NCBI RefSeq assembly: GCF_001590905.1
Contig: NZ_BCTT01000022.1
Span: 1 to 35,458, forward strand
Length of the DNA stretch: 35,458 nt
Reading direction: 5' to 3'
From: Serratia grimesii NBRC 13537
GTDB lineage: Bacteria > Pseudomonadota > Gammaproteobacteria > Enterobacterales > Enterobacteriaceae
The position numbers and the translations under genes were made by a program. The notes beneath the pieces are model-generated. The model did no database searches and was not told where the DNA came from. It was given only the letters and a program-made list of their open reading frames with translations. Of the stretch, positions 5,422 through 35,458 are shown one piece after another; positions within the stretch are counted from its first letter, which is position 1, and every line of letters starts with the position of its first letter.

Positions 5422-5454
5422 TTCGAACCTCTCATATCAAAATGGATATGTCAG

Positions 5455-5760: not shown

Positions 5761-5795
5761 GGTAAATCCTTATTAGATTGTATTGTTTAAATGGA

Positions 5796-6194: not shown

Positions 6195-7216
6195 GCTTTC
6201 ATTTCCTCAAAATACTGGTTTCGATGAATTGGACGGAAATAAATGTCATTCATACGGCGGACATTTCCGTCTAAATCAATGCTCACAATCACGTCCAGGC
6301 TATCCAGAACCTTACGTAACATAAATGTATAGGGGAGCTGGGCGCACTGTGGATTTTCATAGCAACGGGTAATAAACCCATCTATAGCTTCTTTCGCTGA
6401 TCCTGCATGAATGGAGGTCATACTCCCTTCATGGCCGGAACCTGTTATTTTAAGGAAGTCCCAGGCTTCCGCACCGCGAACCTCTGTTAATAAAATGCGG
6501 TCAGGGTTCATACGGTAATTCCAGCGTAAAAGGCTCGCCGGGGTAACGATAGAACCTTTTTCATCTGATGATTCTGACGGATAAAAAAGATGGACGTAGT
6601 TTTTATGGATAAAGAACGTGATTTCCGGGTTGTCCTCAATGGTTGATATCCGAAGATGTACAGGAATATACCCTATCAACATTTTCATATAGGTGGTTTT
6701 CCCGGTACTGGTTTCCCCGGCGACCGCGAGAGTTTTACCGTACTCGACGCATTTCTCCATAAACAGAGGAATATTTTTTGTATTGTACAATGCAATTAAT
6801 TCCTCGTCGTGCGTCTCCGTTTTTTCCTCGCCTGTTACCCGGTTATAAAATCCCGCATCGATGTATGACTGATGCGGGATTTGTACCTTCGATGGCTTAC
6901 GGATGGTGATAGACACCGTATCGCGCTCACAGGCCGGGGGAACAATCACCTGGCACCGTTCGCCAGATTCCAGCGTGGCTGACAGCCCCGGCTTAATATC
7001 TTCGATATTGTCGCCGTGGTGCTTTGCCAGGCACCGGGCAAAGTTGTAGCAATCCTCATAGGACAAAGGAACGGCGTGCTGCTTCCATACGCCGTTGATT
7101 TTGGTATACAGCTCACCTGGACGGTTGACGGCGACCTCCGTCAGGCCGGGAAGCTCCAGAAAGTCGCCAAAGAAACGCTGTTTATAGCGGTCGAGGGAAA
7201 TATTCTTAGCGGTCAT
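6191..7216 (-). CDS. virB11: VirB11 secretion ATPase
   Basis: A 341-aa hexameric traffic ATPase of the inner membrane that switches the channel between pilus assembly and DNA transfer. Motifs in order: Walker A GETSTGKTTYMK (about 166-177), Asp box ISTIEDNPEI, Walker B-like RILLTEVRGAEAWDFL, His box GHEGSMTSIHAGSA. Length is usual for the family. The start overlaps the end of virB10 by 11 bp. Confidence 0.95.
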   Translation of the reverse strand: MTAKNISLDRYKQRFFGDFLELPGLTEVAVNRPGELYTKINGVWKQHAVPLSYEDCYNFARCLAKHHGDNIEDIKPGLSATLESGERCQVIVPPACERDTVSITIRKPSKVQIPHQSYIDAGFYNRVTGEEKTETHDEELIALYNTKNIPLFMEKCVEYGKTLAVAGETSTGKTTYMKMLIGYIPVHLRISTIEDNPEITFFIHKNYVHLFYPSESSDEKGSIVTPASLLRWNYRMNPDRILLTEVRGAEAWDFLKITGSGHEGSMTSIHAGSAKEAIDGFITRCYENPQCAQLPYTFMLRKVLDSLDVIVSIDLDGNVRRMNDIYFRPIHRNQYFEEMKA

Positions 7217-8456
7217 TTTTCAACCTCAGTGTATAGATGTTGGAAAAATCAATATCCTCGCCTGTGATTAGGTTGATGATCTCGCCCTGATTCTTATAGA
7301 GCGTTGGGGGAATATTGATGCTGTTCTCCAGCGTAGTACGCGCCATATCTGCCATAGCCTGGCGGCTGTTTTCCGTATAGTCCGTATTGCGATCTTTTTT
7401 ACCCGCGCTGTTGGATGCCCATGCGCCAATATCGGGGATCATGCCGACCATTAACGCGCCGCCGAACCGTTCCCAGAAGTGCGAATCTATCCAGCCATCA
7501 ACGCCAGCCTCGCCCAGCTCGCCAGCCGCGCTGGTATCAACCAACGGGATATCGAGATAAGGCGGCTGGCGGGTGCGTAGCTTCGTCGCAATGATGAATG
7601 CCCGCCCTTGCCCGTGCTTCATACCTTCTTCCGCTATGGCGCGGTAAAGTAATGATGCGGTGGTGCCTTTCTCTATCAGCTTCGTGTTGCCGCTGGCGCT
7701 CCAGATGTCAGTAGTGACCGTGCAGCGAAGTTTCCCCGCCCGGTCAGATACAAAGCGGCGATCCAGTGAGCAGGGGATCGAGGTATTTTCCGGGATGTAC
7801 AGGTCAGGGTTATAGGGTATGCGGCGCACTGGTGCGGGGCTTTGTCCCGGGGACGGTGCGACGGTATTTGTGGCCGCGCTGCTGTCCTGTTGTCCGGTGG
7901 TCGTTGCCGATGTCAGCGTCATTTCCTGCTGCCGGGTTTTTACCGGGTTCTGTGTGGTGGCCGAACCATCACGGCGAATAAGGAAGCTGGCTTTGTTGAG
8001 TTCTGGCGGGGCGGCCGGAGCCGCCTGCCCTGTTCCCCTCGTGCTGCTCTGGCCGTTATCCTGTTGCTCTGGCTCTTCTTCGGCTGTATCGGTGGACATA
8101 CCGAGATCGTTACGCTGCCGGTAATCGGTTTTGTTCGTCTGCGGGGCTGTGTCCTGTTTCTTTTCTTCCGTAGGCTGCCACAGGATATTGCGATAAACCC
8201 AGTTACCACCCCATGCCAGGAAGATAAGCGCGACCGCGACAATGGCAAGAAAGGCGGTTGCTTTGCCCCGTTTGCGCTTTTTCAGCTTATTAACGGCGGG
8301 TTGTACCGGGTCTTTCTCTTCGTCGTCCTGCGCATTGAGAAGCTCGGCCTCCCTTTTAGCGCGGGCTTCCCGCTCAAGCGTGGCAATATCATCCTCAGCG
8401 TGTGCCGGGGATGCCTGCGCTTCATCCGGCACAGGCACTTTGTTTTCGTCGTTCAT
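7206..8456 (-). CDS. virB10: VirB10/TrbI core-complex protein
   Basis: A 416-aa inner-to-outer membrane channel scaffold. A charged cytoplasmic part (residues 1-65) is followed by one membrane helix (about 67-90), a flexible Gln/Thr/Pro-rich periplasmic linker (90-215) and the TrbI beta-barrel domain, with ENTSIPCSLDRRFVSD and the inserted VDGWIDSHFWERFGGALMVG antenna region. I chose ATG 8456: the AGGA site is 9 bp upstream, whereas the ATG at 8462 is only 3 bp from it. An AT-rich double operator-like site (8475-8504) lies between virB9 and virB10. Confidence 0.95.
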   Translation of the reverse strand: MNDENKVPVPDEAQASPAHAEDDIATLEREARAKREAELLNAQDDEEKDPVQPAVNKLKKRKRGKATAFLAIVAVALIFLAWGGNWVYRNILWQPTEEKKQDTAPQTNKTDYRQRNDLGMSTDTAEEEPEQQDNGQSSTRGTGQAAPAAPPELNKASFLIRRDGSATTQNPVKTRQQEMTLTSATTTGQQDSSAATNTVAPSPGQSPAPVRRIPYNPDLYIPENTSIPCSLDRRFVSDRAGKLRCTVTTDIWSASGNTKLIEKGTTASLLYRAIAEEGMKHGQGRAFIIATKLRTRQPPYLDIPLVDTSAAGELGEAGVDGWIDSHFWERFGGALMVGMIPDIGAWASNSAGKKDRNTDYTENSRQAMADMARTTLENSINIPPTLYKNQGEIINLITGEDIDFSNIYTLRLKNDR

Positions 8457-8474
8457 ATGCATGTTTCCTGATTT

Positions 8475-8504
8475 TATAAAAATATAAAACTATTTTTATA
8501 GTTT
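8475..8504. promoter_or_regulatory. Double AT-rich operator-like site before virB10
   Basis: TATAAAAATA at 8475-8484 and TATTTTTATA at 8491-8500, the same 10-mer in opposite orientation. The second is the centre of an AAACTAT-TTTT-ATAGTTT inverted repeat (8487-8504) that overlaps the virB9 stop codon. Confidence 0.5.
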
Positions 8505-9408
8505 AATTGGATTCCGGTTTTTCCACTCTTTCCACCTGCCGGGATACGGTGGAACCATCGGCGGCGTGTACCTTGCCAAATCCGCTATTTTCCAGACCCA
8601 CAACGGCATTACCGGAACGCAGTACCAGGCGTGGCGTCACCTCCTGAATCACCAGTACGGTGAAGTCGCCTTTCTTCTGGATACTGCTGTTAACCACATG
8701 CTCTTTGCCGTTCAGCTCTTTGGTGACGGAAGGAATGGACTTAGACGGGGAGAAGCCCACGAACGTAAAGCGGCCATCGTCGTAAGCAAAATCGGGAACA
8801 ATGTTGAAGCTGCCTTTGCCCGGATATTTTGTGTAACTCCAGTTGCGGGGCGTCTGTGCCGAGTTCAGCGCTTTCTGGACACTGGCCTGCTGCTGTTTCT
8901 GCTCCCACTCGCGTTGTCTGGCCGTCGCCTCCCGGCTCGCTTTGTCCCGTTCTTCGCCCGGATAGCGATAGCTCACTTGGAAAGCGGGTTGCTGTGCCGA
9001 TTTATCATCGATGACGTTCAGCTCGACGTTGTACAGGCGCTTACTGGTGACAACCAGCATATTGGTATGCCAGTCCCGGCTGTTCGGGGGGATCACGACT
9101 TGCGTTGTGTTGCCATCCTCTCCGGGCGCTCCCTGCGTGAGCGCGACCGGGCGAACGTTGACCCGGTTTGCATCCGGCGTGGCTTCCCACGCCTCATCAA
9201 AGCCGGGTTTGGCGCTTATGACCGCCTCATCGTTATCAAATACCAGAGTTGTCATAAAGCCGGGTTTGGTGTTAACGACGGTTACGTTCTGCGGGTTATA
9301 GATAACCTGCTGAACACGGGAGTCATAGCGGCTTGCCTGTGGTATGGCCGCACCCCATGCCGCACCGCACATCATCAGTGCCAGTGCGGTAAATGTTAAC
9401 TTTTTCAT
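8503..9408 (-). CDS. virB9: VirB9 core-complex protein
   Basis: A 301-aa periplasmic/outer-membrane protein that forms the T4SS core ring with VirB7 and VirB10. It has a signal peptide (KKLTFTALALMMCGAAWGA) and the two-domain CagX/VirB9 layout; the carboxyl domain contains RNWSYTKYPGKG and DDGRFTFVGFSP, typical of the family. Two adjacent ATG codons exist. The second (9408) is 6 bp from GGAGG and shares its A with the virB8 stop (TGATG), so it is preferred over 9411. Confidence 0.93.
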   Translation of the reverse strand: MKKLTFTALALMMCGAAWGAAIPQASRYDSRVQQVIYNPQNVTVVNTKPGFMTTLVFDNDEAVISAKPGFDEAWEATPDANRVNVRPVALTQGAPGEDGNTTQVVIPPNSRDWHTNMLVVTSKRLYNVELNVIDDKSAQQPAFQVSYRYPGEERDKASREATARQREWEQKQQQASVQKALNSAQTPRNWSYTKYPGKGSFNIVPDFAYDDGRFTFVGFSPSKSIPSVTKELNGKEHVVNSSIQKKGDFTVLVIQEVTPRLVLRSGNAVVGLENSGFGKVHAADGSTVSRQVERVEKPESN

Positions 9409-10091
9409 CATTCACCTCCCCGGATTTCGCGGTCGGTCTGCCAACTGGTGACGGTAAAGCCGAAGTAGTTGATCTCGCGTTCCGCATCGCTCATTTCCTT
9501 GTCAGGGTCAGAATGGAACGTGAACCGGGCATCCCAATATTCGTTGCGGATGCTGTTATCAGCCAGACGGCGGATAATCTTCTTGTAGCGAATGGTGGCG
9601 ACCCTATCAGGGGCTGTCGCATCGGTGATCTGGTTGGACAAGATCTCCACTTTCACGGTGTGCGCCCCGTTCTTATAAACCTTGTCCGGGGCGTTTTTTC
9701 CGGCGTAAAGCGCCAGGTAGTCATCGTTTACCTGGGGAGCGTTGTAGACCTGTACCGTCTCGTAGTCGTCCTGCAAAGAGGGATAGACATACCGCTCACG
9801 CACTTTGACGTAGTTTGCGGCCATCGCCTTTTGATAGGCTTCTGTTGCGGTCAGGCTGGTTTTCGATGTCCGGGTAACGTGTTCCACCCGTCCTGTGTGG
9901 TTATCCACGGTATACAGCTCAACGTCCGTCTGTTTCAGCGGCAACATCACGACCACGGCGACGAGCGCCAGTACCGCAATCAGCAGACCCACACCGCCAA
10001 CAACAAAACCGGCTTTTGTGGCGCGTTTATCCCGCTCAATCATTTGCTGCTCAAAGGTGCGGGATTCAGCTATTAATTTCTGTTCACTCAT
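9408..10091 (-). CDS. virB8: VirB8 inner-membrane assembly factor
   Basis: A 227-aa bitopic protein: short cytoplasmic tail, one membrane helix (about residues 30-52, GFVVGGVGLLIAVLALVAVVVML), then the NTF2-like periplasmic domain with ANYVKVRERYVYPSLQDDYETV and FTVTSWQTDREIR, characteristic of VirB8. It is the assembly hub for the channel. Its start lies inside the end of virB7 (8-bp overlap). Confidence 0.95.
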   Translation of the reverse strand: MSEQKLIAESRTFEQQMIERDKRATKAGFVVGGVGLLIAVLALVAVVVMLPLKQTDVELYTVDNHTGRVEHVTRTSKTSLTATEAYQKAMAANYVKVRERYVYPSLQDDYETVQVYNAPQVNDDYLALYAGKNAPDKVYKNGAHTVKVEILSNQITDATAPDRVATIRYKKIIRRLADNSIRNEYWDARFTFHSDPDKEMSDAEREINYFGFTVTSWQTDREIRGGE

Positions 10092-10221
10092 GACTGTTTA
10101 ACTCCGCCATAATTTGAGGGGTGTTTACGGGTTCTCCCTTACCGCTAAAGGCAGAGGGAGGCGTGTTCTGGGCGCAGCCAGAAAGCGCGCACAGCAAAGC
10201 CAGCGCAATCAAGCGTTTCAT
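10084..10221 (-). CDS. virB7: VirB7 small lipoprotein
   Basis: A 45-aa lipoprotein: MKRLIALALLCALSGC-AQN, with a clear lipobox (LSGC), then a short Pro/Ser-rich tail. Size, lipobox and position between virB6 and virB8 match VirB7/TraN, the lipid-anchored partner of VirB9. The stop codon TGA lies within the start of virB8, so the two are coupled. GATGAAACGC is preceded only by a weak ribosome site, at a distance of 27 bp from the large palindrome at 10249-10274. Confidence 0.85.
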   Translation of the reverse strand: MKRLIALALLCALSGCAQNTPPSAFSGKGEPVNTPQIMAELNSHE

Positions 10222-10248
10222 CAAAGATTTCCTCAACTGAATTAGAAA

Positions 10249-10274
10249 TATGAAAATATAATTATATTTTCATA
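10249..10274. promoter_or_regulatory. 26-bp perfect palindrome between virB6 and virB7
   Basis: A fully self-complementary 26-bp AT-rich sequence whose 14-bp core AATATAATTATATT is identical to that at 621-634. It lies in the only sizeable gap between virB6 and virB7 (about 90 bp), where an internal promoter for virB7-virB11 could be controlled. Confidence 0.55.
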
Positions 10275-10312
10275 GGTTGGTGTTTCGGGGGGATGGACTG
10301 GAAACGTCTGGC

Positions 10313-11386
10313 CTAGCTGTTGAACTTCTTAACCGCGGAATCTCTCGACTGTGCCAGCCTCCGCGCTTCGTTCCGGGCTATCATCTGCTCAATCGCGTAT
10401 TTACGCGCTTTAGAAGCGTTATAGCCTAATTCACCTCCGGGCTTGCCGGGCTTACCTGCATTCGCATCCTTCCAGCCCTGAATGTTGTCCTGGGCGGAGC
10501 GTGTGGTATTCCTTCCGGCACTCGCGGCCAGTTTCCCGGCACCAAAAGCAGCCGCACCGATACCTACTGCGGCCAGCCCCTGCATGGATACGGTAGCACT
10601 AGCCCCGGCCAGCGCTGCGGCCAGTTTTGCGGAGAGATAAATCAATATTGCCGCACAGATACCTGCAAGACAGACTTGCGCTCCTAGTTCTACGATATTT
10701 GCCTGGGCTGCACCTTGAGTTGCTAATGCAAGCCTTGAGTTTAAGTAATTAACCACAATCCTTAATGATAAAGAAGAAAGGAGAATTGTTAATATGGCTG
10801 CAAATATGTTTTGTAGCCAGTTATTAAACATGGGACGAAGGAAACCATACATAAGGCAAAAGATGAATATAGGTGCTGTAATACTCAGCAATAAGATCAT
10901 TACTTCCGCTATCATGGAAACGAACGCGGTGATAATCATTAAAACGAATATTCCAAGCCATACATAAAATTGAGCAGTCATTCCCTCATCTTTTATATAT
11001 GTGGAGTTATCCATATCATGTAATGTTTTACCTAATACTTTTGCATTATTCCATAAGCTATCTAATAGCTGCCATATATTATCACTGCCAGAAAAGCCCT
11101 CTTTTAACCCGTTGATAGCGTCGATAACGCCATCGAGATAACCACTAATATTTGCCACAAAGGAAAGGATGATCGCCATCCTCATGATGTCCCACATCGT
11201 ATCTTCCATCGGCGTGGATAGCTTACCCGCTAACGTCTGGTATCCACGCCACATGATGTAGATAGTGGCTGACGTAACCGCCAGCCCCATCATCATAGAA
11301 GAGTACGACATCATTAATCCCTTTGTGGCGTCCGTTATTCCACCTATCAGATGTTTTTCAACGCCAACAAAAACACCACCGGACAT
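10313..11386 (-). CDS. virB6: VirB6/TrbL polytopic channel protein
   Basis: A 357-aa inner-membrane protein with an amino-terminal periplasmic segment, a loop region around residues 80-130, at least five membrane helices (clear ones near 28-50, 65-85, 140-165, 165-200, 230-280) and a polar basic carboxyl tail (GRNTTRSAQDN onward). Pattern and position match VirB6/TraD, part of the substrate path. The middle part is A+T-richer than its flanks. The start is 10 bp from the eex stop. Confidence 0.9.
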   Translation of the reverse strand: MSGGVFVGVEKHLIGGITDATKGLMMSYSSMMMGLAVTSATIYIMWRGYQTLAGKLSTPMEDTMWDIMRMAIILSFVANISGYLDGVIDAINGLKEGFSGSDNIWQLLDSLWNNAKVLGKTLHDMDNSTYIKDEGMTAQFYVWLGIFVLMIITAFVSMIAEVMILLLSITAPIFIFCLMYGFLRPMFNNWLQNIFAAILTILLSSLSLRIVVNYLNSRLALATQGAAQANIVELGAQVCLAGICAAILIYLSAKLAAALAGASATVSMQGLAAVGIGAAAFGAGKLAASAGRNTTRSAQDNIQGWKDANAGKPGKPGGELGYNASKARKYAIEQMIARNEARRLAQSRDSAVKKFNS

Positions 11387-11396
11387 ATTTACCTCA

Positions 11397-11624
11397 CTAT
11401 GAATTTAAATCGACAGTCGGAGCATTTAATTGCTGAATTTGCCAGTGAGCTTCGTTCGCATTTTTACAATTTTCCGAAGCGCTCCCTGTTTTTTGACATT
11501 TTTCGTAAACAGCTTTTAGTTCTTCTGGATGGTCTTTATACCATTTGGTGGTTTTAGCCTCTTCTTTGCATCCACTAACTAAGAAAACTGATAATGTCAG
11601 GAGAGATATTGTTAATAAACGCAT
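11397..11624 (-). CDS. eex: Entry-exclusion lipoprotein (EexN family)
   Basis: A 75-aa lipoprotein: MRLLTISLLTLSVFLVSGC-KEE, with lipobox VSGC, then TTKWYKDHPEELKAVYEKC and ASENCKNA. This is the W-Y-x2-H-P-E-E plus two-cysteine pattern of EexN proteins from IncN-like systems. It should reduce redundant uptake of the same plasmid. Its last residues (QQLNAPTVDLNS) nearly repeat the end of the neighbouring VirB5 (QQLNAPTIDLNS), which is odd and is discussed under findings. Confidence 0.85.
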   Translation of the reverse strand: MRLLTISLLTLSVFLVSGCKEEAKTTKWYKDHPEELKAVYEKCQKTGSASENCKNANEAHWQIQQLNAPTVDLNS

Positions 11625-11637
11625 GTTGTAGTTCCCT

Positions 11638-12342
11638 TTAGCTATTTAAATCAATTGTTGGCGCGTTTAACTGCTGCTGATTCCACTGTTTAACGCGCTC
11701 CGCCTCAAGCACTTTTTCGCGCTTCTCTGCTGCTTTCACGCTCATTTCCCATTGGGTGGTAAGCGTGTTCAGCATGACAGATTTTAGCTGAATACTGTTT
11801 GCAAGGTCTTGAGATTCTTTCGAATCTTTGGCTAACGCTACCCTGTTGGAGAGGCTGTTGATTTCCCCCAGGGTCTGGCTTACCTGGTTCTGAACCTCGT
11901 CGGTTTGCTCAAGCTGGATAGCCTTGTTGATGACCTGCTGCTTGCATACGTTGGCATAACTCCCCGATTGTGCCGTGTTGCAGGTGTCGAAAATTTTATA
12001 CTTCTCGTACAACGCATCGAACTGCCCGGAGGAACCGCCGGAGAGAAGTAAATCATTCAGTGCCTGTCCGGGCTTACGCAGCTTTTCAAGGTCAGCTTTC
12101 AGGCCTTTGGCCTGGTCAACAAAATCAGCAATATCACGAACGCCAGTGGCCGTCGCCAGTTGGTCTTTATATGCCTGTATTTGTGACTGGTAGTGTCTGG
12201 CTGTTTCCATCCAGCGTTTTAACTCCTGCGCCCACTGCACGTCCCGCATAGGGTCAGCATCAACAGCGACGGGAATACCAGCATGAGCCAGTGGGCTTGC
12301 AATTACGCAAGCCAGAATAAGAGTACGAAAGCGAGTTTTCAT
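11638..12342 (-). CDS. virB5: VirB5 minor pilin
   Basis: A 234-aa secreted pilus-tip adhesin/minor pilin. It has a signal peptide (KTRFRTLILACVIASPLAHA-G) then GIPVAVDADP and long heptad-like helices, including WAQELKRWMETARHYQSQI, typical of the VirB5/TraC family. Two cysteines (DTCNTAQ and NVCKQ) may pair. The carboxyl tail matches that of Eex. It starts 17 bp after the virB4 stop. Confidence 0.92.
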   Translation of the reverse strand: MKTRFRTLILACVIASPLAHAGIPVAVDADPMRDVQWAQELKRWMETARHYQSQIQAYKDQLATATGVRDIADFVDQAKGLKADLEKLRKPGQALNDLLLSGGSSGQFDALYEKYKIFDTCNTAQSGSYANVCKQQVINKAIQLEQTDEVQNQVSQTLGEINSLSNRVALAKDSKESQDLANSIQLKSVMLNTLTTQWEMSVKAAEKREKVLEAERVKQWNQQQLNAPTIDLNS

Positions 12343-12359
12343 CGTATATCTCCTTTGGG

Positions 12360-15098
12360 TCAGAGCGCTTTAGCCAGGTAGGTATCGAGCCATTCATGAG
12401 GCTGCATTCCTTCCCGGTAAATCGATTCGAATATTTCGAGGTTGGGGGCATCGCCGCTCATGACTTTGGTGTATCTGCCGATACCCGACAGGTCGAGCGT
12501 GACGCGAGCGGCAAAACGTTTGGTATCGCCGCGCTTGAACTGATTTTTCACCACAACATACTGGCGGGCTTGCGGGTCAAGCCCTTTCACCACGTCGAAC
12601 ACTTCCGGTTCAAACTTCATGCCGTCAACATAGTGTGCGCGGTCGGCATTGGGGTTCGCCGCCAGAATCTGTGTCCCGCACTGCTCAATCACTGCCGGGG
12701 CGATATCATCTTTGATGATCTCTGCCGGGGATTGAGTACCTACGACCAGCATCCCGTTCAGCTTACGGATGGTTTTCAGCTTGTTATAAGCAAAGTCCTT
12801 AAACACCGGGTCGCGTAACCACTTCCAGAATTCATCCATGAAAATGACCAGGCGTCGCCCGTCAAGCAGGCTGGTAATGCGGTACAGCAGATAAAACGAG
12901 ATTGGCGCACATACGCTTGCATCGTCCAGGAACTCCGTTCCGTCGATGCCGAAGTTATCGCAGTTGCTGATATCGAACGTGTCAGATTCGTTATCAAACA
13001 CCCAGCCGAACTCACCGCCCTGCGCCCACTGTGACAGCCGAATGCTAAGGCCGTTTTCCTGGGCTTCTTTCGTAGCCGGCTCAGGCAAATTTTCCAGCAT
13101 TCGGGTAATTCCGTAGACGCGATATTGTGGCTCGTCATTCATCACAGCATTAATCGCATCACTCAGACGGCGTTCATCGCGTGGGGAGATCGTCGAGCCG
13201 TTGCGGGTACAAAGGATTTTCATCAGTTGCTTGATGAAATTGATATTGCGTTTGGTTGCAGGCAACGAGAACGGGTTCCACCCTGTAGACTCACCACTGA
13301 TAACCCGATAGTAACGGCCACCCAGCGCCCGGATGTTCATCTCTGCGCCCCGGTCTTTATCGAGGTAAACGGTTGTCAGCCGTTTAGTTTTGGCATCCGG
13401 GGAGAAGCTATCCTCGCGCCCGTATTTCTGCTGCATGATCTCAAAGAACGTCATCAACATGGTTTTACCCGAACCGTTCGTACCGAGGATGCAGGTACTG
13501 GCCGGGTTCTTCTCGTTGAATTCGTCCTTATCTGCCAGTGTGTTATGCAGGTTGATATAGTAGCCATCGCCTGACGGGGTGCGCAGTAAAGCCATCGCAT
13601 CCCCCCAGGGGGCTTTATCGCGCTTGCCCGGATAGAAATTATGGAGTGCGGCCAGCTCCACAAAGTTCTGGCTACTCAGCTCCCCTTTACGTGGCCGCAG
13701 ATTGTAGTTGCCTGGCAGTTGCGCCATATATGCCGCTGAAAGCGATATTTCTGCCGGAACAGGCGTTATCCCGATGTTGTTCAGCGCGTTACTGATTTCG
13801 TTAGTATCAGCAACCAGGCTTTCCAGCGACGGGGAATACACCATGATGGAAAAATGGTGCTTTCCGTAAGCGATTTTCCCCGATGTCAGCAGGTCAAGCG
13901 CCACATCCAGATCCAGCCGCTGGGAAACAGCATCGTCGTCGGCACTCATCAAAAGGCGACGGGTACGCTTAATGGCTTTCTTCGCTTCCTCGCGTGACAT
14001 GCAGGTATAGGACTGCGTGATCACGTAATCGCAGGGGGCGTAAAGAAGGGAGTCCATCATTCCAGTGGCGGTTTCTTCGGAGAACTCTTTAACCTCCAGC
14101 CCCCGGAAATATTGCGTACCGTTGGCGTGGTTTATCTGCCCGGATTCAGCCGAAAAGAACAACGCCGCCGCTCCCATCACGTCATAGGCCGGGGTGCGGG
14201 TGACGCGCACCTTTCGCCACTGGTGCGTTAACAGATATTCATAGAAAGCCAGTTGCGACGAAAACACCGCGCTTCCTTCGGTAAACGTACCGAGAGGCCG
14301 CGCACCATAGCGCGACAGCGCGGTATCGAGCGTGCTTTTTATTTCCAGCATTTCCAGCAAAGCACCGTCCAGCTCCTTTAGTTTCTGGCTGTCTTTCATC
14401 CGTTTGCGTTCTGCTTTTTCAAGGCTGACAAACGGGCGATAGCAGACCGTCAGGAACAGGCGGTTGCGCCGGAACAGACCGACAGAAGCGTAGTAAAGAC
14501 GGCTAACTTCATCTGCATACGGGTTGCCGGAATCTTTATGAAGATTGTCGGTAAACGTATTGCGGTCGTTATGGATATAGAAAGTAACGGGCATACCTTC
14601 GAATGAGCGGATTAGCCCGTGTAACTGGTTCGTCCCGAACTGGAGCGATTCGTCAGACTCGCAGTCGAACGGCGTTCCCATCAATTCCCAGGTGCAGTAC
14701 AGATCGCTCTTAGGGGAACGAACCACATGCTGATGAATGTGCGATGAGTACGGGATGTACTTCTTGATGGTGGCACACTGATTTAGTTTCATGGCGTCGA
14801 GAAACTCCTTGATATCAACATCATCATGCTCAACGGGCATAAATGTTGTTGCGCCAAATAAACGGTTCGCTACCGGCTTTCCCTTCGCTCTCAGCCATAC
14901 GGCAATCAGATTGAACCGCATCGGTTCATTTCTGGTAAGGGACTTCATCACCAGAAATTGCACAGGAAGTAAGAACAGGAGAGCGACGGAAGTCCAGATA
15001 GCAACGATGATGGTTACACCCGTGACAGCCAGCAGGGGCACCATTGGCACCCCCCACAGCGCCGCCGGGCGTTTCATTGCCTTGAGCAGCTTTGCCAT
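12360..15098 (-). CDS. virB4: VirB3-VirB4 fusion, T4SS assembly ATPase
   Basis: A 912-aa protein. The first about 90 residues contain two membrane helices (GVPMVPLLAVTGVTIIVAIW and ALLFLLPVQFLVMKSL) and match VirB3; the remainder is VirB4. The fusion is established for several plasmid and Campylobacter systems. ATPase motifs: Walker A TCILGTNGSGKTMLMTF (about 534-550) and Walker B RRLVIFMDEFWKWL (about 745-758). It energises pilin extraction and channel assembly at the inner membrane. It lies 12 bp downstream of virB2. Confidence 0.95.
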   Translation of the reverse strand: MAKLLKAMKRPAALWGVPMVPLLAVTGVTIIVAIWTSVALLFLLPVQFLVMKSLTRNEPMRFNLIAVWLRAKGKPVANRLFGATTFMPVEHDDVDIKEFLDAMKLNQCATIKKYIPYSSHIHQHVVRSPKSDLYCTWELMGTPFDCESDESLQFGTNQLHGLIRSFEGMPVTFYIHNDRNTFTDNLHKDSGNPYADEVSRLYYASVGLFRRNRLFLTVCYRPFVSLEKAERKRMKDSQKLKELDGALLEMLEIKSTLDTALSRYGARPLGTFTEGSAVFSSQLAFYEYLLTHQWRKVRVTRTPAYDVMGAAALFFSAESGQINHANGTQYFRGLEVKEFSEETATGMMDSLLYAPCDYVITQSYTCMSREEAKKAIKRTRRLLMSADDDAVSQRLDLDVALDLLTSGKIAYGKHHFSIMVYSPSLESLVADTNEISNALNNIGITPVPAEISLSAAYMAQLPGNYNLRPRKGELSSQNFVELAALHNFYPGKRDKAPWGDAMALLRTPSGDGYYINLHNTLADKDEFNEKNPASTCILGTNGSGKTMLMTFFEIMQQKYGREDSFSPDAKTKRLTTVYLDKDRGAEMNIRALGGRYYRVISGESTGWNPFSLPATKRNINFIKQLMKILCTRNGSTISPRDERRLSDAINAVMNDEPQYRVYGITRMLENLPEPATKEAQENGLSIRLSQWAQGGEFGWVFDNESDTFDISNCDNFGIDGTEFLDDASVCAPISFYLLYRITSLLDGRRLVIFMDEFWKWLRDPVFKDFAYNKLKTIRKLNGMLVVGTQSPAEIIKDDIAPAVIEQCGTQILAANPNADRAHYVDGMKFEPEVFDVVKGLDPQARQYVVVKNQFKRGDTKRFAARVTLDLSGIGRYTKVMSGDAPNLEIFESIYREGMQPHEWLDTYLAKAL

Positions 15099-15110
15099 AT
15101 ATTCAGCCTC

Positions 15111-15416
15111 TTAGCTCATCAGCAGAGCGCCGATTTCACTGCCTCCGCCAATTAAAATGCCGCCAATGATGATGTAGCCGCACTGCGACAGGCTCTCGCC
15201 TTTCCACAGGGTCTTATAGCCAATCCAGATCACGGCCACGGTGATCGTGATAGCCGCCAGACCATGCAGCCCGCTGGATACCTTCTCCATGATGGTATTT
15301 GCCCGGCTAAAACCATCAGCGAACGCCGGACTGGCAGCAAAAACGCTCATGGCCGGAGCCAGAACATAAGCAGATGCACGGCTGATTAATTCCTTTACCT
15401 TACTGAAAAGTTTCAT
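15111..15416 (-). CDS. virB2: VirB2 major pilin
   Basis: A 101-aa pre-pilin with a long leader ending FAASPAFADG (predicted cut after AFA) and two hydrophobic helices (GLHGLAAITITVAVIWIGYKTL and CGYIIIGGILIGGGSEIGALLM), the VirB2/TraM pattern. The ATG at 15416 overlaps the virB1 stop (ATGA) and has AGGAAG upstream; longer in-frame versions extend into virB1 and are not credible. Confidence 0.92.
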   Translation of the reverse strand: MKLFSKVKELISRASAYVLAPAMSVFAASPAFADGFSRANTIMEKVSSGLHGLAAITITVAVIWIGYKTLWKGESLSQCGYIIIGGILIGGGSEIGALLMS

Positions 15417-16123
15417 TTTTCTTCCTCTTTCGTTGTTACATCGCGATTTCCGCGCACAACCTGCGCGGGGTAATAGACGGTGGCCGCCTTTTTCTGGCGG
15501 AGTTGAGCCGGAACGCCGCGAACGATCGCCCCCGGCCACACCACGCGCGGGCGCGTCGGCGCGTCCACAGGCGTAGCTTTCAGGGTGGCCGCTGGGGTTG
15601 CGATATCATCGCGGGTGCCGGGAACGGCATAGCGGGTATCCGCCGGGGAGTAGCCAATCCGCTGTACATAGCTCGTCTTTGAAAAAGCGGGTTCCTGCTG
15701 TTGTCCGGTACTGAAATTGCCGGAGTAGTAGCAGCTCAACGCCCTTTTCAGGGTGCCGCCCCGCTGGTAGCAGTCGGTGATGATTTTTTCGTAGACGGAA
15801 AGATTGATGCAGGGATTGAAAAGGTCAGTAGCGGTGACGCCGTAACGCTTAAAATTGGTGCTGGTTATCTGCATCAGGCCAACAGAGTAGCGGCGACCTT
15901 TCGCCTCAATCTGATTGGTGATGCTGACTGCATCCTCCTTACTTTTTGGCATGTGAGTAATAAAGCCTTTATCGCCGGGTTTTCGTTCGGGCTTAGGCAC
16001 GATCTCAGCGATGGCATAGGGGTTGTAACCGGACTCCACTCTTGCCACATCGAGGGATGTAGAAGGGTGAACGGTGGCGGCACACTGCATAGCCACCGCC
16101 AGAAAAGCAGTGGTGGAAAGCAT
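15413..16123 (-). CDS. virB1: VirB1 lytic transglycosylase
   Basis: A 236-aa periplasmic muramidase that opens peptidoglycan for the channel. It has a signal-like start, catalytic Glu in DVARVESGYNPYAI (residue 30), the family motif YSVGLMQITSTNFKRYGV and ALSCYYSGNF, all usual for SLT-domain VirB1. The carboxyl third is Pro/Val-rich and probably unstructured, as in VirB1 proteins from which a tail is released. Confidence 0.92.
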   Translation of the reverse strand: MLSTTAFLAVAMQCAATVHPSTSLDVARVESGYNPYAIAEIVPKPERKPGDKGFITHMPKSKEDAVSITNQIEAKGRRYSVGLMQITSTNFKRYGVTATDLFNPCINLSVYEKIITDCYQRGGTLKRALSCYYSGNFSTGQQQEPAFSKTSYVQRIGYSPADTRYAVPGTRDDIATPAATLKATPVDAPTRPRVVWPGAIVRGVPAQLRQKKAATVYYPAQVVRGNRDVTTKEEEK

Positions 16124-16130
16124 GGCAACC

Positions 16131-16223
16131 TCAGAACAGAAAAATGGTGATCAGCCAGATGATGAACAGAACGAACAACCAGCCTGCGAACGCAAGCCAG
16201 GCATTGGTATTGTCTTGATTCAT
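16131..16223 (-). CDS. 30-aa single-helix membrane peptide
   Basis: ATG at 16223 with GGGAGA 6 bp upstream opens a 30-codon frame ending TGA at 16131. The first nine residues are polar (MNQDNTNAW) and the rest is one membrane helix rich in Trp, Phe, Leu and Ile (LFVLFIIWLI). It fits exactly into the gap between the 72-aa gene and virB1, which have 7-17-bp spacings to it, so it is likely a real gene that length cut-offs would miss. Function is unknown; possible pore, chaperone or regulatory peptide. Confidence 0.6.
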   Translation of the reverse strand: MNQDNTNAWLAFAGWLFVLFIIWLITIFLF

Positions 16224-16240
16224 TGTGCTGTCTCCCTGTT

Positions 16241-16459
16241 TTAACTCACAGGAGCAGCCTGCGGCGCTGCGTCATCTTTAGGTTCGAGGAGTACCAGCTT
16301 GCCGGAAACGGAAATACCGGGCGTGATCATGATGTTCAGCCCCGGCTTGCCGTTGTGTGCGAAGGCCGCACCGACTTTCGTCCAGTACGTATTTTTTTCG
16401 CCGTTCTCGTCGGGCTGGGTTTCCTGCGTGACGTACACGTTATAGGTGGGTTTTCTCAT
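16241..16459 (-). CDS. 72-aa beta-rich protein of the tra leader
   Basis: A small protein starting at 16459 (AGGAGT upstream). The core TYWTKVGAAFAHNGKPG then LNIMITPGISVSGKLVLLEP resembles short plasmid/ICE proteins of the W-x-K-x-G-x-A-x3-H-x-x-G type, which are often annotated DUF736-like or as hypothetical. It is acidic, soluble, without signal peptide. Four bp separate it from the upstream 71-aa gene. Function unknown. Confidence 0.65.
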   Translation of the reverse strand: MRKPTYNVYVTQETQPDENGEKNTYWTKVGAAFAHNGKPGLNIMITPGISVSGKLVLLEPKDDAAPQAAPVS

Positions 16460-16463
16460 TGCA

Positions 16464-16679
16464 TTACTCCTTTTGTTTCTCTGCGAGTAGCTGCCGGAGC
16501 AGCTCGGTACGGGCTTGCTCACCAAATTCATCCATCAGGAACTGGAGAAAGGTGCTTGGCCGGATATTTGATTCAGACAGGTAGCTGATTTCACGGGCTT
16601 GCTTTGCTAACTCCTGATAGCGCTTTTGCCCGATGTAAATAACAGCCGTGCTTGATTTGCCTGGTACGCTTTTCGGCAT
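16464..16679 (-). CDS. 71-aa possible ribbon-helix-helix regulator
   Basis: Starts at ATG 16679 with AGGAGT 9 bp upstream (a longer frame to 16733 runs through the terminator and is rejected). STAVIYIGQKRYQELAKQA followed by RPSTFLQFLMDEFG has a beta-alpha-alpha layout compatible with a ribbon-helix-helix DNA-binding protein. It is the first gene after the terminator at 16698-16731. It could control the transfer promoter, but this is inference. Confidence 0.6.
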   Translation of the reverse strand: MPKSVPGKSSTAVIYIGQKRYQELAKQAREISYLSESNIRPSTFLQFLMDEFGEQARTELLRQLLAEKQKE

Positions 16680-16697
16680 GAGGTAAAAACTCCTATG

Positions 16698-16731
16698 AAA
16701 AAAGCACCGCAGCTTATGAAGCCTGCGGTGC
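16698..16731 (-). terminator. Strong intrinsic terminator between actX and the virB operon
   Basis: On the minus strand a 9-bp GC-rich stem (GCACCGCAG/CTGCGGTGC) is followed by TTTTTT. It would stop transcription 20 bp after actX, before all T4SS genes, unless polymerase is modified, for example by the ActX antiterminator. Confidence 0.85.
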
Positions 16732-16750
16732 AAGGGAGGTCAGATTGTGG

Positions 16751-17206
16751 TTAGTGGTATTGGTTCTGGAGTAGTTTTGAAAAGGCTACCTGGCGTTGGA
16801 GCGGAGACCTTATCAGAGAGAGTTCTTGAATTTTTGCCAGCAAGTCCGGGGCAATATTTCGACACTCGATAGCATCTTCATCAGGATTGAGCGCCATCAG
16901 ACGGGCGCATTCAATCGCTGTTATCACTGATTTGGGGACGGTGCAGGGTGTTGAACCGAAGCTGACAAAACCATGCGCGCCCGGAATTGATGTGATAGTC
17001 GATGTATGCGTTATGTTGACGTCAAAGCAGAGGAAAAGATAATTAGGAAACAGCACCTTCTCTTCCTGACGTACCGCCCGGCAATCCTTACGTGGCGTTA
17101 CTTTGATATAGCGGGGGCAAAACACCTCGACATCCAGTCCCTCGACTCTTCGGGTGATGCGTTCAACATCCTGATTGTTGCAGTATAAAACGTACCATTC
17201 ATACAT
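16751..17206 (-). CDS. actX: ActX, NusG/RfaH-type antiterminator
   Basis: A 151-aa protein of the NusG family: MYEWYVLYCNNQDVERI begins the NGN domain, with VEVFCPRYIKVTPRK and VLFPNYLFLCFD typical of RfaH-like specialised paralogs (RfaH: the YPGYLFV-type strand). Such proteins bind paused polymerase and suppress termination in long operons; ActX is the IncX-plasmid name. Start 17206 is chosen for its AGGGAGG site; the in-frame ATG upstream (17227) lacks one. It is the first gene of the minus-strand transfer operon and is followed directly by a strong terminator. Confidence 0.85.
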   Translation of the reverse strand: MYEWYVLYCNNQDVERITRRVEGLDVEVFCPRYIKVTPRKDCRAVRQEEKVLFPNYLFLCFDVNITHTSTITSIPGAHGFVSFGSTPCTVPKSVITAIECARLMALNPDEDAIECRNIAPDLLAKIQELSLIRSPLQRQVAFSKLLQNQYH

Positions 17207-17238
17207 AAGATCCTCCCTAATGGGCACAAGCCCCCATT

Positions 17239-17267
17239 TTCCGCCGTCCTAAGTTGGCGGAACTTAG
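17239..17267 (-). promoter_or_regulatory. Mutually exclusive leader hairpins before actX
   Basis: In the actX 5' leader CTAAGTT pairs with AACTTAG, and TTCCGCC pairs with GGCGGAA; the arms overlap, so only one hairpin can form at a time. This is the arrangement of a switching or pausing leader and could be the loading site for ActX itself. Confidence 0.45.
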
Positions 17268-17287
17268 AGCGCGTACTCATAGCTTAA

Positions 17288-17319
17288 CTGTATAAATTTA
17301 CACCTGGTATTTTATACAG
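17288..17319. promoter_or_regulatory. Inverted-repeat operator over Ptra
   Basis: CTGTATAAA (17288-17296) and TTTATACAG (17311-17319), perfect 9-bp arms 14 bp apart. The right arm covers the -10 box, so a bound dimer would block transcription. The divergent XRE protein is the obvious candidate. Confidence 0.65.
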
Positions 17320-17336
17320 CCACTTCGGGGTGTCAA
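17309..17336 (-). promoter_or_regulatory. Promoter of the transfer operon (Ptra)
   Basis: Minus strand: -35 TTGACA (17336-17331), 16-bp spacer, -10 TAAAAT (17314-17309). It is the best sigma70-like promoter in the window and lies about 100 bp upstream of actX. Confidence 0.8.
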
Positions 17337-17384
17337 CATCAAGAACTGCTAATGATAATAACATTAAATCATTCAAAATCAACC

Positions 17385-32478: not shown

Positions 32479-32516
32479 CTTAACGTGGTTTTTCGCATGG
32501 TTGGACCTCAGACCCC
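32479..32516 (-). mobile_element. 38-bp Tn3-family terminal inverted repeat (right end)
   Basis: Read from outside (minus strand) it starts GGGGTCTGAGGTCCAACC and ends CGAAAAACCACGTTAAG, exactly 38 bp. Both ends and the CGAAAA core agree with the Tn3 repeat. It abuts the ISNCY transposase gene, which is cut at this base. The five bases outside are TAAAA (candidate target duplication). No matching left repeat was found near 20.5-21.0 kb. Confidence 0.8.
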
Positions 32517-33118
32517 TAAAATGCCAACGGCTTACCATGTTTATCAATATATTCACGGGTAGCAATCATGTAGTCAAAAGCTGATTCGGTTTCACCGAAA
32601 CGAAGATGCATTATGCGGCCGGTGGCATCATCGACAAACACCAGAAGACAGCATTTAGGAGCGCGTCCTTCAAACCAGTCGTGAGGTGAGCCATCTATCT
32701 GTACTAACTCACCAAGGCAGTCACGGCGATAACGGGGCTGATATACACGTGGTTTACGGCGTGAGTATGGAACCCACAATCCGTCAGCAATCATCTAGTT
32801 ACGCAACGTTTCGACGGATACTGAAATATCGTGTCGTTCACTGAGTTTTTCTGCGGCGAGAGTTGGTCCAAAATCACTGTATTTTTCGCGCAACAGCGCC
32901 AGAACCCGCAATTTAAGCGATTCTGGAATCCGGTGATTACCTGGTTGGCCACGGCGAAGGCTGGCTAATCCTGAAACGCCAGACTCACGATAACGATTCA
33001 TCAGGCGCTGAACCTGTCGTTCGGTGAGGTTAAGTTGATGGGCTGCATCACGGCGACGCATGCGTTTATCGATAACTGCCTGAATAACGTTGATTCGGTT
33101 TAGCTCTTTATCTGACAT
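32517..33118 (-). pseudogene. ISNCY-like transposase, amber-interrupted and truncated
   Basis: From ATG 33118 the frame reads MSDKELNRINVIQAVIDKRM, a helix-turn-helix (AAHQLNLTERQVQRLMNRYRE), ending ETLRN, TAG (32797-32795), then continues in the same frame MIADGLWVPYSRRKPR to LVQIDGSPHDWFEGR and VFVDDATGRIMHL, which contain the first two Asp residues of a DDE nuclease. The amber codon probably replaced a Trp codon (TGG). The 3' half is lost at the Tn3-family repeat. It resembles ISNCY/ISKpn21-type transposases from memory; the exact IS name is not established. Confidence 0.8.
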
Positions 33119-33175
33119 GGTCACAAGCATCCTGATGTCTCCACGGCAACAAGGTTCAATCCTTTATGCCAGAAA

Positions 33176-33209
33176 AAGTGACATCTCTAAATGGGTAGAA
33201 AGTGACATT
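33176..33209 (-). mobile_element. ISNCY-like terminal repeat, right border
   Basis: From outside in: AATGTCACTTTCTACCC then GATGTCACTT, 58 bp upstream of the transposase start. It mirrors the left border at 20501-20537. Flanking backbone sequences (GCAAGTTTA left, AGAATATGG right) show no obvious target duplication. Confidence 0.6.
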
Positions 33210-33492
33210 AGAATATGGGAGCTACAAATTTGGTTCGCCAAATGCCTTTTATGTTAAATAGAAGTGTTTCTATACAAAAAGAGTCATCTCAAGCCACTAA
33301 CTATCTGAAAATGCGTTTTTTATATTTTTTATGTGCAGTTTAGCTATAAAAAATGCATGTAATTTTTTTGTTAAATTTAAATATCTGTGTAACATTTTTA
33401 ACATTTTATTTTTTTAGATCTTTTTTTCATTACCTCGATAAAACTCAACTTTTCAGAAAAGCGCTTTCCCTGAATTAGGCATGTATCAAATC
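33210..33492. other. AT-rich non-coding stretch
   Basis: About 280 bp, strongly A+T-rich with long T runs (about 33320-33435), downstream of the three-gene operon. No gene is seen; a GAAAAGCGCTTTCC palindrome near 33457-33470 may help termination. Confidence 0.5.
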
Positions 33493-34059
33493 TCATTCCC
33501 CGTCATCAAGGGAGTTTATATAATCGGCTATGATATCCCCATGACATGCATATGGCTTGCAATGACACGCAATAACCTTTCCCTTAAGAGATGATGCATT
33601 TTTATCAATATTATCAAAGGGTTTTAAAAATTCTTTATCAAAATCATATTTGAATTTTCTTATTACTTCATCCCTATCCCCATCTACGCCTATTTGATAA
33701 GGATTTCCCCATATCGTACCTCTGCCTATATATACATCAAATTTATCACCTCTGTCTTTATTGACAACCAGCGTCAGATTTAAAAGTACAACTTTTACTT
33801 TTGCATTCTCAGGTAATTTAAAATCACCAATATCTTGACGTTTGTCTCTAAAAATAATTGCATATTCAGCATCTTCGGCAGAATTCACCTCACGAATTCG
33901 AAATTGCTTATCTTCAGAAATTTTTCTGATAAATCCTCTAGGGTCAGAGATGAAAATTATCTCTGATATGCTTATTTTTTTAGTCAAAAAGTCCAATTTC
34001 CTTTTAAATTTACTAAAGCAATTGAACTCTTTACTATATTCTAAAAAAAGTACACTCAT
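33493..34059 (-). CDS. DUF4326-domain protein
   Basis: A 188-aa protein. The first about 95 residues are an alpha/beta segment of unknown type (SEIIFISDPRGFI, DAEYAIIFRDKRQD). From about 107 it is a DUF4326 domain: DVYIGRGTIWGNPYQIG, GDRDEVIRKFKYDF, and KVIACHCKPYACHGDIIADYI with Cys165, His166, Cys167, Cys172, His173. Biochemical role is unknown. The ATG overlaps the DUF488 stop (ATGA). The carboxyl motif parallels that of the upstream DUF488 protein. A+T content is far above the plasmid backbone, indicating separate ancestry. Confidence 0.8.
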   Translation of the reverse strand: MSVLFLEYSKEFNCFSKFKRKLDFLTKKISISEIIFISDPRGFIRKISEDKQFRIREVNSAEDAEYAIIFRDKRQDIGDFKLPENAKVKVVLLNLTLVVNKDRGDKFDVYIGRGTIWGNPYQIGVDGDRDEVIRKFKYDFDKEFLKPFDNIDKNASSLKGKVIACHCKPYACHGDIIADYINSLDDGE

Positions 34060-34508
34060 AGTATATGATTGATATCAGTTTTTTGGTTTGACCATTGTTG
34101 TTTTAAATACTCTGCCAAAAGTCTTCTATGGCAATTATGTGGCTTATCTTCGCTGCAAAGAAGGCATCCATTATCCACATCAACACTAGATAACTTCGAT
34201 GATATAAGTCTTTGTTCCATAAGATTTAAATATTCATATGAGTACTGTTCCCAAGTGATGTTTTTATTTTTATAATCATCTAGAATTTTCTTTGTTGGGG
34301 CTAACTCTGATCTGTATACATAATCTATGTTACATATCTTTCTTAAGAAGAACTCAAGATCTTTTGCCTTTGCAAAACCGGAAAGCTGGGAATTGTTATT
34401 CAATCTTGTATCTATTACTCGGATGACGCCATTTTTCTTTAATGCGTTAAAGAAATGCTCAGCTGTCTTTTTTGTAAAACCTATTGTATGTATGTTTACA
34501 TGTTCCAT
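34056..34508 (-). CDS. DUF488-family protein
   Basis: A 150-aa protein with the family blocks IHTIGFTKKTAEHFFNALKK, VIRVIDTRLNNNSQLSGFAK, LAPTKKILDDYK and CLLCSEDKPHNCHRRLLAEYL (Cys115, Cys118, Cys126, His127). DUF488 proteins have no settled function; conserved polar residues and the Cys/His motif suggest an enzyme or a metal/nucleotide binder. Its ATG follows directly on the TAG stop of the upstream gene, and its stop overlaps the next start, so the three proteins are made together. Confidence 0.85.
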   Translation of the reverse strand: MEHVNIHTIGFTKKTAEHFFNALKKNGVIRVIDTRLNNNSQLSGFAKAKDLEFFLRKICNIDYVYRSELAPTKKILDDYKNKNITWEQYSYEYLNLMEQRLISSKLSSVDVDNGCLLCSEDKPHNCHRRLLAEYLKQQWSNQKTDINHIL

Positions 34509-35156
34509 CTAAAATACTCCAGCTACTACTTTATATAAGTTTCCATTCAGTGGTTCGGCTAGACTGATAGTAAGATAGGAGACTCCATCAAGTTCTTCCT
34601 CTTCGCCATCATTCAACCTGTTGTTTTCATCTCTGAAATAGTTCTGTATTCCCATATCTGTAGTCGTTAGCAAGTATTCATTAGAGTTATAGGTGAACCT
34701 TATTCTCAGTTTATCAGTACCATACTCATTCTGCATCTGTACTATCACCGTATCATCAGGCTTGATCAGGTAGAGTGAATTATTTACCACACTCTGTCCA
34801 ATAATGATTTTGTCATTTACACCGTAGTTACTGCTTGTTCCTGTCCCCCATAGAGTTGCAGGCGTATCCACATAATCATCTAAATCATTAGCAGCACAAT
34901 GCCCATTAACAGTAAAAGTCACGTTTTCATCAATGATGTGGTTCTCTGTTTGGTGTCCTTGAGGGGCATGGTTAATGGTTGTTGCTTGGAAAAAATCTAG
35001 GGGTTGGATGGCATTTCCATGATGGAATATAGCGTTATTAATAGGATTTGCTGTAATTGTTCTTACCCATTGATTATTATCATTTTTTCCTGCAATGCAA
35101 AATCCTCCATTTTTCCAAGATTTAGCAAGACAAAGTAGTTGATGAATTGTTCTCAT
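34509..35156 (-). CDS. Dual OB-type domain protein
   Basis: A 215-aa soluble beta-rich protein resembling the dual-OB domain family: LLCLAKSWKNGGFCIAGKN at the start, the hallmark QTENHIID (residues 69-76), LLTTTDMGIQNYF, and YLTISLAEPLNGNLYKVVAGVF at the end. OB folds usually bind single-stranded nucleic acid, so a recognition role is plausible (inference). First gene of the operon; GGGAAGAAA precedes the ATG. A promoter candidate lies upstream. Confidence 0.75.
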   Translation of the reverse strand: MRTIHQLLCLAKSWKNGGFCIAGKNDNNQWVRTITANPINNAIFHHGNAIQPLDFFQATTINHAPQGHQTENHIIDENVTFTVNGHCAANDLDDYVDTPATLWGTGTSSNYGVNDKIIIGQSVVNNSLYLIKPDDTVIVQMQNEYGTDKLRIRFTYNSNEYLLTTTDMGIQNYFRDENNRLNDGEEEELDGVSYLTISLAEPLNGNLYKVVAGVF

Positions 35157-35328
35157 TTTCTTCCCTTACATTTTTCCATTAGAAGTCGCTAGGCAGAACC
35201 TTAATCATTGCTACATATATCAGATCTATCTTACTTTTCAATCCATATGTAACAAAGTTTTACATGGATTCTGATTGGCTTGTTATCAGTGGCCTCCATG
35301 CACACATCAAGGGGGGGGGGTATTATTA
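35157..35328. promoter_or_regulatory. Divergent control region between the three-gene operon and parA
   Basis: Minus strand: TTGAAA, 16-bp spacer, TATATG (about 35241-35214) is a plausible promoter for the dual-OB operon. A run of ten G residues occupies 35311-35320, beside the first AT-rich palindrome of the parA side. No gene is seen. Confidence 0.45.
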
Positions 35329-35399
35329 TATTTTTATATAAAAATATTTACTGATGGTGAGGTCTGGATTAGACTTACAGTATTACCTATTTTTATAGG
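35329..35399 (+). promoter_or_regulatory. parA promoter region with two AT-rich palindromes (possible centromere)
   Basis: A perfect 18-bp palindrome TATTTTTATATAAAAATA (35329-35346) and CCTAT-TTTT-ATAGG (35386-35399), both containing the 10-mer TATTTTTATA. They flank the probable parA start of transcription and are suited to binding by the ribbon-helix-helix partner. Confidence 0.55.
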
Positions 35400-35422
35400 A
35401 AAATATTTATATAGGGGATGAT

Positions 35423-35458
35423 ATGACTGCTGTTATCGCACTGGCTAACGGGAAAGGC
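35423..35458 (+). CDS. parA: ParA partition ATPase, first 12 codons (continues at base 1)
   Basis: ATG at 35423 opens a frame of 12 codons ending in Asn-Gly-Lys-Gly at the window edge. Joined to base 1 it gives GKGGVKKSS, a deviant Walker A box (KGGxxK[ST]), in unbroken frame. This is the amino terminus of the 1-612 gene, so the window is a circle opened inside parA. The first in-frame start after base 1 (GTG at 4) would remove half of the ATP-binding loop, so it is not the real start. A ribosome-binding sequence (ATAGGGGATGAT) precedes the ATG. Confidence 0.9.
   Translation, partial: MTAVIALANGKG

Follow-up and report, generated by a model that had tools for sequence, protein, structure and literature searches.

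Introduction

PDC-M45, a candidate system catalogued in PADLOC-DB 2.0.0 and composed of the proteins A, B and C, is the closest described relative of a three-gene operon that we analysed in Serratia grimesii NBRC 13537. The operon lies on contig NZ_BCTT01000022.1, of which we analysed a stretch of 35,458 nucleotides, called the window throughout. It encodes a dual-OB protein of the DuOB family (D), a DUF488 protein (C) and a protein in which an mSLOG domain is fused to DUF4326 (S). The likeness to PDC-M45 consists in a contiguous operon in which D matches PDC-M45A and C matches PDC-M45C; the difference is that B is absent, with an mSLOG-DUF4326 gene downstream instead, and a hidden Markov model (HMM) of B found no B-class open reading frame (ORF) in the window. 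Since A and C are present without B, we file the D-C-S operon, on these profile matches, as a putative variant of PDC-M45 and not as a member of it.

A second point of comparison is the RapZ-C-DUF488-DUF4326 clade, which Burroughs and Aravind reportedly named in 2023 with a prediction of DNA-end processing. Theirs is the work most likely to describe the present set of genes, and we do not claim that the D-C-S form is unpublished. We take PF04343 and PF14216 to be the families that define this clade, and the conserved Cys of its proteins to be presumably catalytic; to our knowledge, the large families DUF488 and DUF4326 have no tested activity. C and S resemble the clade in matching these Pfam families above cut-off and in keeping the Cys/His core, but their two profiles align over the P-x-x-C-H core only (20 columns, at a probability of 14.5%), and the activity is putative here.

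Viral proteins in which DUF4326 is fused to SLOG, Macro or NADAR domains are discussed in PMC9503650 and PMC7824862 as viral proteins directed against host signals, and both papers predict for DUF4326 an action on the phosphates of ADP-ribose or of its products, bridging NAD signalling and DNA modification. S shares with these proteins the presence of a SLOG-type domain and DUF4326 in a single chain; it differs in that the SLOG domain is minimal and the gene shares its operon with DuOB and DUF488 genes. PMC9674854 and PMC12704722 deal with DUF488 in other settings. Our literature searches returned no paper pairing DUF488 with DUF4326, none on PDC-M45 and no experimental test of PDC-M45; papers that name single parts of the set (DuOB, mSLOG, RapZ-C, DUF488 or dual OB domains) do not, judged by title, treat this system.

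Results

Three intact ORFs, all on the minus strand, run from position 35156 to 33493 (Table 1), exactly the span given in the original prediction, a reading of the bare sequence that did not state the strand. The TAG stop of D directly abuts the ATG start of C, and the TGA stop of C overlaps the ATG start of S as ATGA; both couplings had been predicted. The strong A+T richness that had likewise been claimed corresponds to a G+C content of 34.1% in the operon versus 52.0% in positions 1-33100 of the window, and in eight of eight measured relatives the operon also lies below its own locus in G+C, by 2.3 to 13.9 points. Intergenic gaps are operon-like among the relatives, at 20 bp or less between C and S in 41 of 41 loci and between D and C in 39 of 41. 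Compared with the copy on a Klebsiella plasmid (L002), to which the three genes are 87.1-91.5% identical in DNA, dN/dS is 0.067 for D, 0.074 for C and 0.102 for S; by this measure, all three genes are codon-constrained and under purifying selection. Because of this constraint, and because plasmids with a D of only about 30% identity show the same gene order, we regard the operon as more than a chance arrangement.

The families that had been named by motif recognition were recovered in profile searches. D matches Pfam DuOB (PF22557) over residues 6-214 at 3.8e-47 (161.5 bits, cut-off 27) and PADLOC PDC-M45A at 3.9e-45, and its residues C20, A22 and R32 are kept in 89 of 89 non-redundant rows; this and the other residue-conservation sets were thinned at 85% identity, with fragments excluded. 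The AlphaFold model of D (predicted local distance difference test, pLDDT, 94.0) is mostly beta and appears to fit OB folds, with middling scores. Among the best Foldseek matches in the PDB are tandem-OB chains of the HIN-200 DNA sensors (IFI16, p202 and MNDA), aligned along their whole length, which would share with D a presumed tandem of two OB folds but differ in how the two halves are arranged (template modelling score about 0.33, root-mean-square deviation 8-9), with no evidence of common descent. A second fold comparison gave good coverage for residues 1-129 only, and the fold matches include end-binding and recombination OB proteins. DuOB is rare, with matches in 5 of 398 Pseudomonadota genomes including that of S. 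grimesii itself, 4 of them above cut-off.

C matches Pfam DUF488 (PF04343) at 4.8e-20 (72.8 bits, cut-off 22.2), DUF488-N3a at 3.1e-10 and PADLOC PDC-M45C at 4.5e-64 (residues 5-143). Two of the three proteins had been credited with Cys/His motifs, and these are invariant in both: C keeps C118, S119, E120, C126, H127, R128 and R129 in 88 of 88 rows, and S keeps C165, C167, P169, C172, H173, G174 and D175 in 25 of 25. Strong matches to C occur in 5 of 295 Enterobacterales genomes, again including the genome under study; four of these carry D-C-S, and one (G509, loci L134/L170, with the C gene at 8116-8565 of L170) has C alone, with no D, B or S nearby.

S matches Pfam DUF4326 (PF14216) over residues 100-178 at 2e-21 (76.9 bits, cut-off 25), and its N-terminal half, which the original prediction had left unnamed, matches mSLOG (PF22565) over residues 1-80 at 4.1e-12 (46.7 bits, cut-off 27). 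The mSLOG profile gives 139.6 bits for the relative in L135 and fits one S relative at 5e-41. Starting S at the ATGA yields the full mSLOG domain, with an N-terminal stretch that can be aligned across relatives; the RefSeq start in the sister plasmids lies 24 codons late (164 aa; for example, 2444-2938 in L001) and truncates mSLOG. The AlphaFold model of S (pLDDT 92.3) seems to fit a SLOG-like fold, with middling scores, and none of the Foldseek rows listed for S covers the DUF4326 half. The relation to the SLOG sensor of Thoeris ThsA is one of fold only, and middling; the operon differs from Thoeris in having no partner gene that matches a TIR or NADase family in Pfam. By eye, an obvious SLOG glycine motif is missing from most S rows. 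PADLOC had no match for S of the window or for three further S proteins, and NCBIfam had none for D, C or S.

These matches do not sustain the earlier description of the system as undescribed, given that D and C correspond to PDC-M45A and PDC-M45C and that Pfam holds DuOB, DUF488-N3a and mSLOG. The three Pfam models, together with the fit of mSLOG to an S relative, suggest that Burroughs and Aravind described parts of this set in 2023.

Relatives of the operon were sought in genome, viral and plasmid collections, and genes were assigned to classes B, C, D and S by small purpose-made HMMs at an E value of 1e-4. B is a second DUF488 protein of about 206 aa that keeps C116, E118, P121, C124, H125 and R126 in 65 of 65 rows; four B proteins from sister loci match PADLOC PDC-M45B at 4.3e-72 to 5.8e-90. 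C was used as bait, so that its neighbours were unselected, and this yielded 34 viral-contig loci and at least 576 genome loci, of which the best 80 were taken. These 80 genome loci are arranged as B-C-D (30), B-B-C-D (1), D-B-C (29), D-D-B-C (2), D-C-S (4), B-D-C (1), B-C (4), B-C with D elsewhere (2) and C alone (7); D is thus in the same cluster in 67 of 80, and a partner enzyme in 73 (69 with B, 4 with S, none with both). Viral-contig loci comprise D-C-S (24), D-B-C (5) and one each of C-S, S-D-C, D-C, B-C-D and B-C. The genes are therefore found together elsewhere, across distant hosts, as the earlier proposal of a single system implied, with D in the cluster at 67 of the 80 genome loci and D-C-S at 24 of the 34 viral-contig loci. 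B and S are mutually exclusive, never sharing a cluster in the loci examined. C is the constant enzyme of the set, and B or S is its exchangeable partner.

S occurs in 26 of the 34 viral-contig loci versus 4 of the 80 genome loci (Fisher p 1e-14), a contrast biased by differences in search patterns and taxa, by near-copies among the viral rows and by the restriction of the genome set to its best 80 loci, 31 of which are cyanobacterial B-C-D; the p value is therefore not relied on. All 31 of these rows (one with a split B; among L057 to L129) are cyanobacterial by title, and in them D stands last, not first. A quick tree of C (88 rows) mostly groups the D-C-S loci and implies four B/S changes, with weak support and with the window row on a long branch, and we therefore make no claim on how often the swap arose. 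The distribution is patchy. A tblastn search of phage records with D as the single protein query found no match, and the operon had no near match in E. coli genomes. C genes without D or an adjoining B or S by the HMMs are those of L077, L085, L122, L123, L124, L126 and L132. In L123, a 431-aa B-type ORF lies on the opposite strand.

Among plasmids, tblastn with D returned 22 records, of which 14 were under 60% identity (26.9-33.6% for those with a tabulated value), and 12 of these 14 were examined. Annotated DUF488 and DUF4326 genes follow D in L012, L014, L015 and L017, two annotated DUF488 genes lie beside D in L008, L010 and L013, and the HMMs assign C and S after D in L011 and L019, where the genes are unnamed, and in the unannotated L009. 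The 14 plasmid loci for which D or the operon served as query comprise nine D-C-S, a count that includes the copies L014/L015 and L011/L019, three D-B-C and two interrupted operons. The latter are L016 (pH205), in which C is split in two and D survives as a shortened ORF ahead of an ISEcp1-blaCMY-36 segment, and L018, an Acinetobacter plasmid with D in two pieces and with short C and S. L009 is a mobilizable Klebsiella plasmid of 4,167 bp whose three-gene set, whole at 2370-4028, takes up about 40% of its length.

The window itself seems to comprise a circular plasmid in full, since its two ends adjoin within the parA gene of L001, a sister plasmid (between 4411 and 4412). Sister plasmids are typed IncFII with MPF_T, and positions 1-17364 of the window are 97.6% identical to the transfer region of L001. 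In blastn comparisons of the window with L001, L002 and L166, homology starts at 33226 in all three. The operon had been placed in a cargo position between an insertion sequence border and parA. The cargo position beside parA holds, but the supposed border is the edge of an insertion, since the segment 19729-33225 occupies the position of ccdAB in L001, and the operon belongs to the slot repA-toxin-antitoxin (TA)-cargo-parA that is common to the sister plasmids. Positions 32517-35287 are shared with a Leclercia plasmid at 99.9%, and 8 of 72,556 plasmid-collection records hold near matches to the operon. All or part of parA-mobC is shared by 74 plasmid records; among 11 stretches inspected, the operon was present in 2, and the slot in the other 9 held SprT-like, colicin with immunity and lysis, type I restriction-modification (R-M), nucleotidyltransferase, carbonic anhydrase, TA, recombinase, transposase or unnamed genes. 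The interval between repA-TA and parA is a variable cargo slot, and in L001 and L002 it carries a TA pair of its own, ccdAB or RelE-type.

Table 1. Coordinates of the operon and adjoining features in the window
Feature	Coordinates	Strand	Remarks
Gene 1 (D): DuOB, dual-OB family, PDC-M45A-like	34509..35156	-	215 aa
Gene 2 (C): DUF488 protein, PDC-M45C-like	34056..34508	-	150 aa
Gene 3 (S): N-terminal mSLOG fused to C-terminal DUF4326	33493..34059	-	188 aa
Divergent intergenic stretch, A+T-rich, separating gene 1 from parA; presumed promoter region	35157..35422	.	parA ATG at 35423
A+T-rich tail downstream of the operon	33226..33492	.	sister-plasmid homology begins at 33226
Two adjoining transposase-type ORFs (by eye), neighbours outside the system, at the right-hand end of the insertion	32516..33130	-	

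The inserted segment carries, as named by eye, ars-, nhaA-, MFS-, universal-stress-, SulP-type and transporter-type genes. Of the two ORFs at its right end, 32795-33130 matches HTH_32 and other helix-turn-helix families in Pfam, and 32516-32794 has no Pfam match. A promoter scan of 33130-35458 found 6 promoter-like sites versus a mean of 11.8 in shuffled sequence; with fewer sites than in the shuffles, we claim no promoter for this region. A run of ten G lies between gene 1 and parA at 35311-35320, possibly a slippage site or an assembly uncertainty.

Discussion

The reading that we favour, tentatively and with somewhat less than even confidence, is that the D-C-S operon is a mobile biological-conflict module, most likely directed against phage or rival mobile DNA. 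Its three co-translated proteins would form a module in which D, a dual-OB protein, would bind nucleic acid, probably single-stranded or end-bearing DNA, and in which C and S would be different Cys-pocket enzymes, probably paired on the sugar or phosphate of the ends. Editing of this kind would block replication, joining or expression of the invading DNA (or RNA). The mSLOG domain of S would probably bind a nucleotide ligand, perhaps one derived from NAD or ADP-ribose, and would gate or feed S; in the sister form, the second DUF488 protein B would take the place of S. We infer DNA as the substrate, the end editing, the ligand gating and the anti-phage effect. The end-editing step alone is perhaps correct, and we hold it with low confidence; we know of no tested defence system with such DNA-end modification chemistry. 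It is a doubtful speculation that D-C-S and D-B-C are alternative builds of a single immune complex for end editing, in which a dual-OB clamp would present DNA ends to a constant DUF488 enzyme and an interchangeable second Cys enzyme, with the build that contains mSLOG, the one favoured on plasmids and viral contigs, adding a gate of the NAD or ADP-ribose type. If the operon is protective against phage or rival plasmids, a catalogued candidate would become a defence system with new chemistry. A cassette that fits a 4.2-kb plasmid and has a natural swap of its partner between B and S is a compact handle on DUF488 and DUF4326 function, and the operon occupies an exchangeable slot in plasmids of a family that can carry resistance genes too.

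The genomic company of the operon bears on this reading in both directions. Pfam searches of 117 ORFs beside 22 D-C-S loci found terminase large-subunit families (GpA 4, Terminase_6N 3), a P2 capsid protein, a portal protein and further phage genes, and some of the viral-contig loci are therefore cargo of prophages. The company of known defence genes, which the original prediction had proposed to count, is seen in single cases: near single D-C-S copies there are a NotI-like R-M system (L002), viperin (L011), a type IV restriction endonuclease with PDC-S42 (G466) and ZorA (G073), and near single D-B-C copies there are CBASS (L013) and type III CRISPR (L010). Other neighbours do not point to defence. 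Metabolic functions are represented among the same 117 ORFs, by tRNA synthetases and carbamoyl-phosphate synthase among others; ORFs picked by hand next to G509, G104 and G560 encode, among other proteins, a transposase, a ThiF protein, a tRNA synthetase and glycine dehydrogenase; and L001, L012, L014 and L017 have no annotated defence gene beyond TA pairs. A PADLOC scan of neighbours, covering up to three ORFs on each side of 18 viral and 4 genome loci that were chosen by hand, with near-copies dropped by eye, gave 40 families for the 117 ORFs versus 32 for 114 ORFs of 13 hand-picked control stretches, where the counts are of families, not ORFs, and the 25 families listed for the control include look-alikes such as SspA, DndA and GlgB. 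The scan did not separate the neighbours from the control, and we therefore claim no enrichment of defence genes around the operon.

The operon might instead serve its mobile element against host immunity, with S breaking down or sequestering signals derived from NAD or ADP-ribose by means of its mSLOG and DUF4326 domains, and with D and C as a nucleic-acid arm. Such a role would suit the frequency of S in viral contigs, but that contrast carries the biases of search patterns, taxa, near-copies and selection of genome loci described above; it would also suit the title of a structure-search row for S, according to which the SLOG domain of ThsA binds 3'cADPR, but most S rows lack the obvious glycine motif. 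Removal of signals is a poor fit to a dual-OB partner and to a sister form lacking SLOG, and we consider this explanation unlikely. We give similarly little credence to the idea that the module acts on DNA or RNA ends of its own plasmid or prophage, repairing or capping them, and thereby aids establishment. That D matches end-binding and recombination OB proteins, that an annotated single-stranded DNA-binding protein gene lies just upstream of the operon in Moraxella and that the 4,167-bp mobilizable plasmid gives so large a share of itself to the operon all speak for self-protection, whereas the occurrence of sister forms on complete chromosomes (by record titles) and the defence genes adjoining some loci speak against it.

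Two further explanations appear very improbable. The tightness of the operon and the position of its plasmid slot beside a ccdAB or RelE-type pair recall an addiction unit, in which one enzyme would be a toxin restrained by the others, but no toxin or antitoxin family is among the profile matches of the three proteins, all three genes are constrained, and in L001 and L002 a TA pair is already present in the slot. Ordinary metabolic or stress cargo with no part in conflict seems, if anything, slightly less probable still: carbonic anhydrase does occupy the slot in one sister plasmid and some neighbours elsewhere are metabolic, but the distribution is patchy, phage genes and in some cases defence genes stand nearby, and the operon is lower in G+C than the surrounding locus in every relative measured.
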